DNA of 32,328 nucleotides from Pirellulales bacterium (GTDB lineage: Bacteria; Planctomycetota; Planctomycetia; Pirellulales; Thermoguttaceae), in assembly GCA_016933425.1 (NCBI GenBank), contig JAFGAY010000285.1, forward strand, positions 1 to 32,328, read 5' to 3'. This document shows, piece by piece, positions 5,354-19,441 of the stretch; position 1 is the first letter of the stretch, and the number at the start of each line of letters is the position of its first letter. The notes beneath the pieces were generated by a model. It ran no database searches. It was not told the DNA's origin and saw only the letters and a list, made by a program, of their open reading frames with translations. The position numbers were made by a program, and so were the translations under genes.

Positions 5354-5680
5354 ATGATTCGCCGAACCATGCTGGTGCTGCTGTGCGCGGCCGCCGTCGT
5401 CGCGCTGGTCAGTGCGTCGGATGCCCAGGCCCAGCAAGCCTATGGGCGTCAGTGGGGCCAATCCTACAATACCCAGGATTGGAACCGTTTTTACCACTAT
5501 CCCTACGTCTATTATCCCCAGAATTTCTGGGGAACGGACTACTACCGAAGCAGCGACAGTCTCTACTATCGCTATCCGCCCGAGATGCGCATTCCCGTCT
5601 ACAACAAGCAGTGGCACAACTATTACCCACAAGATCGCGCCTACCATCAGGGCCACCAGTTCATTCTCGACGTGTTTTGA
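5354..5680 (+). CDS. small secreted Tyr/Pro-rich protein
   Basis: MIRRTMLVLLCAAAVVALVSASDAQAQQ signal peptide, then YGRQWGQSYNTQDWNRFYHYPYVYYPQNFWGTDYYRSSDSLYYRYPPEMRIPVYNKQWHNYYPQDRAYHQGHQFILDVF; SD AGGGGGAAA. I recall similar planctomycete proteins being annotated 'calmodulin-binding'; not verified. Confidence 0.75.
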   Translation: MIRRTMLVLLCAAAVVALVSASDAQAQQAYGRQWGQSYNTQDWNRFYHYPYVYYPQNFWGTDYYRSSDSLYYRYPPEMRIPVYNKQWHNYYPQDRAYHQGHQFILDVF

Positions 5681-5858: not shown

Positions 5859-5967
5859 CATGGCCCGGCCCGTGATGCACGGCTTGTCGATACGGTCACG
5901 CTCTTTGCATGGGTCGCGTTGGATTCCACCAAATTTGGCAACACATCAGCCGAATGACGAAAACCTT

Positions 5968-5991
5968 GTTAGCCGTCGAGCCTGCTCGACG
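5968..5991 (+). repeat. REP-like palindromic unit GTTAGC-CGTCGAGC-CT-GCTCGACG
   Basis: 24 nt exactly identical, in reverse complement, to 19418-19441; head GTTAGC plus 8-bp palindrome arms. Confidence 0.75.
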
Positions 5992-6018
5992 TTTGTCCGA
6001 ATTAGTAAGGCATGTGAA

Positions 6019-6042
6019 CGCCGCGCGGGCGCGGCGGCTAAC
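6019..6042 (-). repeat. REP-like palindromic unit, inverted, GTTAGC-CGCCGCGC-CC-GCGCGGCG
   Basis: Reverse complement of CGCCGCGCGGGCGCGGCGGCTAAC; same 24-nt layout as 5968-5991 with two compensatory stem changes. Confidence 0.7.
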
Positions 6043-6270
6043 TGCATTCTTGCCGAATCACTTCAGACCGGCTGAAATATTACCATTTTTTGATTATTGC
6101 TTCAGGTGGAAAAGATCCCCCTAACATTGGTTATGGTTGGGGCAGAATAGCGAGTATATGCACGGCAAAAGTGCGGATTTTTAGGGCTGGGCGAAAAAGA
6201 CGCACTGATAGGTGACTTTGGCACTAGTCAAAAAAACCCAAAATCCGAAAAAGGGCCCCCGATTTAAGGG

Positions 6271-6300
6271 TTGAGCCGCCGGGTTTTGTGACGATAATTA
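6271..6300 (+). promoter_or_regulatory. possible sigma70-type promoter for leader RNA / 6490-12853 cluster
   Basis: TTGAGC (6271-6276) and GATAAT/TAATTA (6293-6300), spacing 16-18; directly upstream of the 6331-6374 terminator hairpin. Confidence 0.35.
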
Positions 6301-6330
6301 TCATGTGTGGGGGATTTCCCTCACCATCTC

Positions 6331-6374
6331 GCCCTCTGTAGGTCCCTGCCCCGCCTACGGAGGGCTCTTTTTTT
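6331..6374 (+). terminator. rho-independent terminator in the leader of the 6490 cluster (attenuator or sRNA end)
   Basis: GCCCTCTGTAGG-loop-CCTACGGAGGGC followed by TCTTTTTTT; no + strand CDS between the previous terminator (5858) and this one. Confidence 0.8.
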
Positions 6375-19417: not shown

Positions 19418-19441
19418 CGTCGAGCAGGCTCGACGGCTAAC
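19418..19441 (-). repeat. REP-like palindromic unit (identical to 5968-5991, inverted)
   Basis: CGTCGAGCAGGCTCGACGGCTAAC is the exact reverse complement of GTTAGCCGTCGAGCCTGCTCGACG. Confidence 0.75.

Follow-up and report, generated by a model that had tools for sequence, protein, structure and literature searches.

A GTTAGC-tagged palindrome doublet inside a MITE in a Pirellulales-group planctomycete genome

Results

The hairpin pair and its family in the host genome

The window, meaning the whole 32,328-nt stretch of DNA that was analysed, comes from a Pirellulales-group planctomycete MAG (G000; 3.73 Mb, 406 contigs, 89% complete). In the intergenic sequence after a conserved ORF ending at position 5680 lie two 24-nt palindromic units, mutually inverted and each built as a GTTAGC head followed by an 8-2-8 palindrome. 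The left unit (5968–5991, forward strand) has the CGTCGAGC stem type and the loop CT; the right unit (6019–6042, reverse strand) has the CGCCGCGC stem type and the loop CC. Both were delimited from the window sequence, the genome-wide copies and a stem alignment. Between them lies a spacer of 27 nt (5992–6018), a part that, judging from the pairs of the family, is constrained in length and variable in sequence. The two window arms differ at stem pairs 9-22 and 12-19, where T-A is replaced by C-G and A-T by C-G, respectively. An earlier note on this DNA had described both the facing units and the two compensated changes, and each description holds base for base. As a single strand, the window doublet folds most stably into one long hairpin rather than two. 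A search of Rfam returned no match in the window at the gathering threshold and nothing credible around the element at E-values up to 1. We also considered an integron attC site, for which the rule is GTTRRRY, and rejected it: the heads point in the wrong direction and GTTAGCC violates the rule.

A degenerate form of the unit matches the window at three places, against 0.02 expected from shuffled sequence. Two of these are the units at 5968 and 6019; the third is a lone unit of the CGTCGAGC type on the reverse strand (19418–19441), 25 nt past the stop of a secretin ORF, where neither a partner unit nor MITE arms (described below) were seen.

The pattern belongs to a true repeat family. At up to one mismatch, the host genome contains 84 units (44 and 40 on the two strands), whereas a reversed control pattern gives 0 and 0. 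Host copies were gathered by pattern and coordinates, and the counts may miss some of them. The GTTAGC tag is conserved at 89–95% per position, the stem begins with CG and the loop is usually 2 nt. Among 107 copies collected at up to three mismatches, every stem position is paired in 93–99% of the tabulated cells, and two of the pairs covary; pair 9-22 is CG in 71 and TA in 25, and pair 12-19 is CG in 61, AT in 26 and TG in 9, counts that are not independent events because they mostly reflect two or three inherited haplotypes.

Inverted pairs are common. All 37 pairs found in the host have their heads outward, as do 20 of 20 in a stricter set; the spacer measures 22–24 nt in 29 of the 37, and its sequence varies from pair to pair. 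In 26 of the pairs, a unit of the CGTCGAGC stem type faces one of the CGCCGCGC type, which makes them heterodimers. Units also avoid genes: 14 of 98 fall within predicted genes, compared with a coding fraction of 0.855 elsewhere, as estimated with a simple, rough codon-usage gene finder. The earlier note had read the window pair as an element of REP/BIME architecture and had named genome-wide count, pairing with orientation, and intergenic bias as the ways to check that reading. All three bear it out, in that a tag and a palindrome recur in many copies, in inverted pairs and at fixed spacing.

The enclosing MITE

The repeated sequence at the window site exceeds the limits 5968 and 6042 and extends from about 5938 to 6083. 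When the host was searched with 221 bases surrounding the pair, about 50 places were found, and many of the alignments ran well past the hairpins. These extensions led us to terminal inverted repeats (TIRs) with the consensus GTAACACTTCAGCCG. The window element is a MITE of 146 bp (5938–6083) with TIRs of about 15 bp and the hairpin pair as its interior. From left to right, it consists of a left TIR, GCAACACATCAGCCG (5938–5952, forward strand, two mismatches to GTAACACTTCAGCCG); a left inner arm (5953–5967, forward) that aligns with the A-type arms of other copies; the doublet; a right inner arm (6043–6068, reverse) that aligns with B-type arms; and a right TIR, GTAATATTTCAGCCG (6069–6083, reverse, two mismatches to the consensus). 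Degenerate copies of a target site duplication (TSD) flank it, CAAATTTG at 5930–5937 and CATTTTTT at 6084–6091, which match at five of eight positions.

At up to two mismatches, the TIR occurs 80 times in the host genome against 6 for the control. The distance from TIR to unit is nearly constant, at 30–31 nt in A-type arms and 38–41 nt in B-type arms. We then determined the length of the target duplication in TIR pairs from four genomes, using the 53 whose span was 95 bp or more. Perfect 8-bp direct repeats flank 16 of the 53, compared with a mean of 0.37 and a maximum of 4 in shuffles; at other lengths from 4 to 12 there are only 0–2 each, and none at 9–12. The outer element is a MITE scaffold, presumably of DDE type, whose mover duplicates 8 bp. 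By profile, 10 of the 37 host pairs carry both MITE arms, 12 carry one and 15 have no recognisable arm; the arm-less pairs may be the remains of old MITEs that have lost their arms by decay.

The host also harbors short forms of the MITE, of 28–69 bp (L070 180–207, L074, L097 and L098). By eye, these look like deletion derivatives that arose by recombination-like joining of short direct repeats (GGCGG and ACTTCAG, for example), and we rejected them on this appearance as pristine, empty MITE scaffolds.

In a same-genus genome, G001, the gene that flanks the element is retained at 80% identity, and a stretch on the opposite side is conserved at 88%. The orthologous spacer in G001 contains no TIR and no GTTAGC unit, at a divergence too high to locate an exact empty-site junction. 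Its element-less state fits either an insertion in the lineage of the window or a loss in that of G001. The same part of the window holds a candidate small RNA gene (6271–6374, forward strand), in which TTGAGC, 16 nt and GATAAT are followed by about 70 nt that end in a strong hairpin, with the loop UCCCUGCCC, and a run of T. A 130-nt stretch covering this candidate is 88% identical to G001, and nearly identical over its final 75 nt, within a spacer that is otherwise unalignable. The candidate has a fold z-score of −5.6 and no Rfam match, and its hairpin is found at further loci of G001, G002, G005 and G012.

Scaffolds and units in other genomes

At least one TIR match is present in 27 of 60 genomes searched, the host included, with 118 matches in G033, 60 in G047 and 28 in G028. 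In G033 and G047 the TIR scaffolds enclose interiors other than GTTAGC units. The GTAACACTTCAGCCG MITE is abundant in other Pirellulales with very different interiors and with exact 8-bp TSDs (L265–L284 in G033, L285–L302 in G047). In G035, a MITE with the same TIRs (L143 1358–1515) encloses a further pair of hairpins, again inverted and seemingly tagged (GAGC-CGCCGGG...), which suggests that the scaffold repeatedly houses REP-like pairs.

When 84,980 species genomes were scanned for exact matches to the unit, 12 stretches were hit in five genomes, all of them Planctomycetota. Of 392 genomes sampled evenly across this phylum, three had a match, the host included. One genome, G060 (E44_bin39; G075 in the phylum sample), belongs to a different class of Planctomycetota from the host. 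It carries GTTAGC-headed units with another stem sequence, arranged as inverted, heads-outward heterodimers with unrelated outer flanks and with spacers of 23–24 nt in four pairs and 12–16 nt in three. On its contig 23, two units are separated by genes that, judged from their ORFs, resemble ftsQ and ddl. Two loci of the same genome, L313 and L321, hold head-to-tail tandem GTTAGC units 4–5 nt apart, with a period of 28–29, as if the mobile unit consisted of the head, the hairpin and TTGA.

In G064, GTTAGC units are 24-nt singles with unrelated flanks. In G061/G015, the doublet sits within a different TIR pair, GTGAAAGAATC...GATTCTTTCAC, in three copies (L196, L206 and L339). The stem is GC-rich throughout and its sequence changes from genome to genome. 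Bare singles and pairs with unrelated flanks do occur, and beside the bare units of G060 and G064 no recurring transposase gene is evident. Because the tag, the palindrome, the orientation and the spacing are kept beyond any one MITE, we treat the doublet as an element separate from the scaffold.

RAYT and IS66 genes

The earlier note had proposed that a RAYT transposase mobilises the units, with a Y1/TnpA_REP gene flanked by the same repeat as the expected trace. The host encodes two RAYTs (L065 1225–2845 and L066 1355–2225), which score 184.1 and 179.9 bits against NCBIfam NF047646 (cut-off 80). Each has GTAG palindromes on both sides, of the GTAGGTCAGGC type, unlike the GTTAGC units in sequence. 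L065 and L066 are complete REPtrons, with GTAG-tagged REPs of the GTAGGTCAGGCTGTGCCTGAC and GTAGGTCAGGCACCCCGTGCCTGAC types. The host also contains two IS200/IS605-type transposases that are not RAYTs (L061 and L062; NF033573, 64 bits each).

Across 33 distinct Y1 loci in the genomes of five species (the host and relatives), GTTAGC palindromes lie on both sides of none, and at least two GTAG palindromes accompany 9. One locus in G060 (L179) has a GTTAGC-like pair, at a distance of about 1.4 kb and to a single side of the gene, among eight GTAG palindromes. The tag of the units is GTTAGC in place of the GTAG by which REPtrons are defined. The RAYTs with their own GTAG palindromes serve as a working positive control, and the proposed link between RAYTs and GTTAGC units fails in the available sequence. 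RAYT mobilisation is therefore not supported in this assembly, which is 89% complete; a cognate RAYT gene may lie in the missing 11%.

For the MITE, we turned to IS66, a family with inverted repeats of 20–30 bp that start with GTAAGCG and with 8-bp direct repeats (PMC11946415). Both IS66 and the MITE have ends starting with GTAA and 8-bp direct repeats, and beyond GTAA the TIR GTAACACTTCAGCCG departs from GTAAGCG. We fetched 16 IS66 loci from this and related genomes and checked the first 14, none of which has a matching TIR pair. In these fragmented assemblies, no autonomous partner with the MITE TIR was found within the IS66 family, and G033 and G047, the two genomes richest in the TIR, have no IS66 gene. 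An IS66 class for the MITE is thus an inference only, since no checked IS66 gene bears the TIR. Two IS66-type genes of G015 (L129 1088–2441 and L130 392–2184) lie inside other 20-bp inverted repeats, which start with GTAAC, match at 19 of 20 and 20 of 20 positions and show no clear 8-bp duplications.

Discussion

The GTTAGC units resemble several known elements. They share with REPINs and BIMEs (Bertels and Rainey, 2011; PMC3116915) short tagged palindromes in inverted orientation, near-constant spacing with a variable spacer, an intergenic and multicopy distribution, and the capacity to form one or two hairpins when single-stranded. The doublet spans 70–72 bp in most host copies, compared with 71 bp between the invariant 16-mers of the REPIN GI doublet (PMC3116915). 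Unlike REPINs and BIMEs, the units bear a GTTAGC tag, have no associated RAYT and lie in many cases, including that of the window, inside a MITE with TIRs and TSDs. The GTAG and CGTC super-families of REPs are likewise stem-loops with an unpaired, conserved end tag that occur mostly as inverted dimers, commonly as heterodimers (Di Nocera et al., 2013; PMC3733652), features that the GTTAGC units share. The CGTC repeats, too, have no transposase of their own, and REP dimers enclosed by longer palindromes are known from A. variabilis (GTAG-15) and H. neapolitanus (CGTC-1) (PMC3733652). The tag here is neither GTAG nor CGTC, and the string GTTAG is absent from the text of that paper. A CGTC-tagged REP (CGTC tag, AT-starting stem of 8–9 bp, loop of 4–5 nt, CCA tail) is ruled out by the GTTAGC tag and is also contradicted by a stem that starts with CG and a loop of mostly 2 nt. 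The outer element resembles the bacterial MITEs NEMIS, RUP, Nezha and ERIC (cited in PMC3733652), which are non-coding, multicopy elements of 70–300 bp with TIRs and a target duplication, and differs from known bacterial MITEs in having a REP-like doublet as its interior. A search of open-licence papers turned up no known MITE with the TIR GTAACACTTCAGCCG, nothing relevant on the core of this TIR and nothing relevant that pairs GTTAGC with REP.

We conclude that the copy in the window is a REP doublet with a GTTAGC tag, nested in a MITE; it is REPIN-like and a RAYT-orphan, with no RAYT link in the available sequence. The family is multicopy, paired and regularly spaced, TIRs and target duplications are present, and the doublet occurs both with and without GTAACACTTCAGCCG TIRs. 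The whole is probably a two-level mobile element, in which a REPIN/BIME-type GTTAGC doublet is nested in a MITE of about 146 bp. The inner level would be the two GTTAGC-tagged palindromes, heads outward and separated by 22–27 nt, which can form either two hairpins or a single long one. The outer level would be the MITE with its GTAACACTTCAGCCG TIRs, presumably inserted at the window site with an 8-bp target duplication that has since decayed. A DDE transposase acting in trans, one that recognises GTAA ends, duplicates 8 bp and is most like IS66, may have moved the MITE and carried the doublet along. The GTTAGC palindromes, in turn, may spread, or may once have spread, independently as single-stranded hairpins, by a hairpin-moving transposase that would be absent from this assembly and distinct from the resident, GTAG-specific RAYTs. 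Among the Y1 and IS66 genes examined in the host and its relatives, we found no transposase for either level.

A different account would make the hairpin pair merely the palindromic interior of the MITE, so that a TIR-recognising DDE transposase spread everything and the bare forms are decayed copies whose GC-rich hairpins outlasted their arms. At least one MITE arm is recognisable on 22 of the 37 host pairs, the arm lengths are as constant as expected had the doublet been fixed before the MITE amplified, and it is at the outer ends that the 8-bp TSDs lie. We nonetheless consider this account unlikely: the heterodimers of G060 keep an equal spacer length without MITE arms or common outer flanks, the units of G064 are singles in unrelated flanks, the doublet of G061/G015 is enclosed by a different TIR pair, and the scaffolds of G033 and G047 hold other interiors. 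A standard RAYT-moved REP/BIME, served either by a cognate RAYT encoded outside the recovered part of the MAG or by the resident GTAG RAYTs acting in trans, would agree with the REPIN-like architecture (PMC3116915), the two RAYTs of the host, the incompleteness of the MAG and the tandem copies in G060. It is rendered improbable by the Y1 loci, none of which is bracketed by GTTAGC palindromes, although one (L179) has a pair to a single side; by the two resident RAYTs, already bracketed by their own GTAG palindromes; and by the importance of GTAG for cleavage by the TnpA_REP enzymes tested (PMC8266576), given a head that here reads GTTAGC. A chance pattern, or a terminator or RNA hairpin of local role with no mobile-element meaning, would suit the intergenic position after the conserved ORF and has a negligible probability in view of the copy counts (84 against 0 in the control), the TIRs and TSDs, the missing element in the orthologous G001 spacer and the absence of an Rfam match.

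Returning to the two-level element, we can tentatively extend it, at somewhat less than even odds, to a third REP super-family beside GTAG and CGTC. This super-family would be restricted to Planctomycetota as far as seen, would form REPIN-like heterodimers with conserved spacing across classes, would owe its movement to a non-RAYT enzyme and would have been captured as cargo by DDE-type MITEs at least twice.

REP elements are usually attributed to RAYT transposases, yet some families have none. The genome described here holds GTAG RAYT systems alongside a RAYT-orphan GTTAGC family, and so offers an internal control for seeking the mover of the latter. Nesting in a MITE with clear TSDs represents a second, conventional route by which a REP doublet can spread, one that could account for REP families that lack a transposase of their own.
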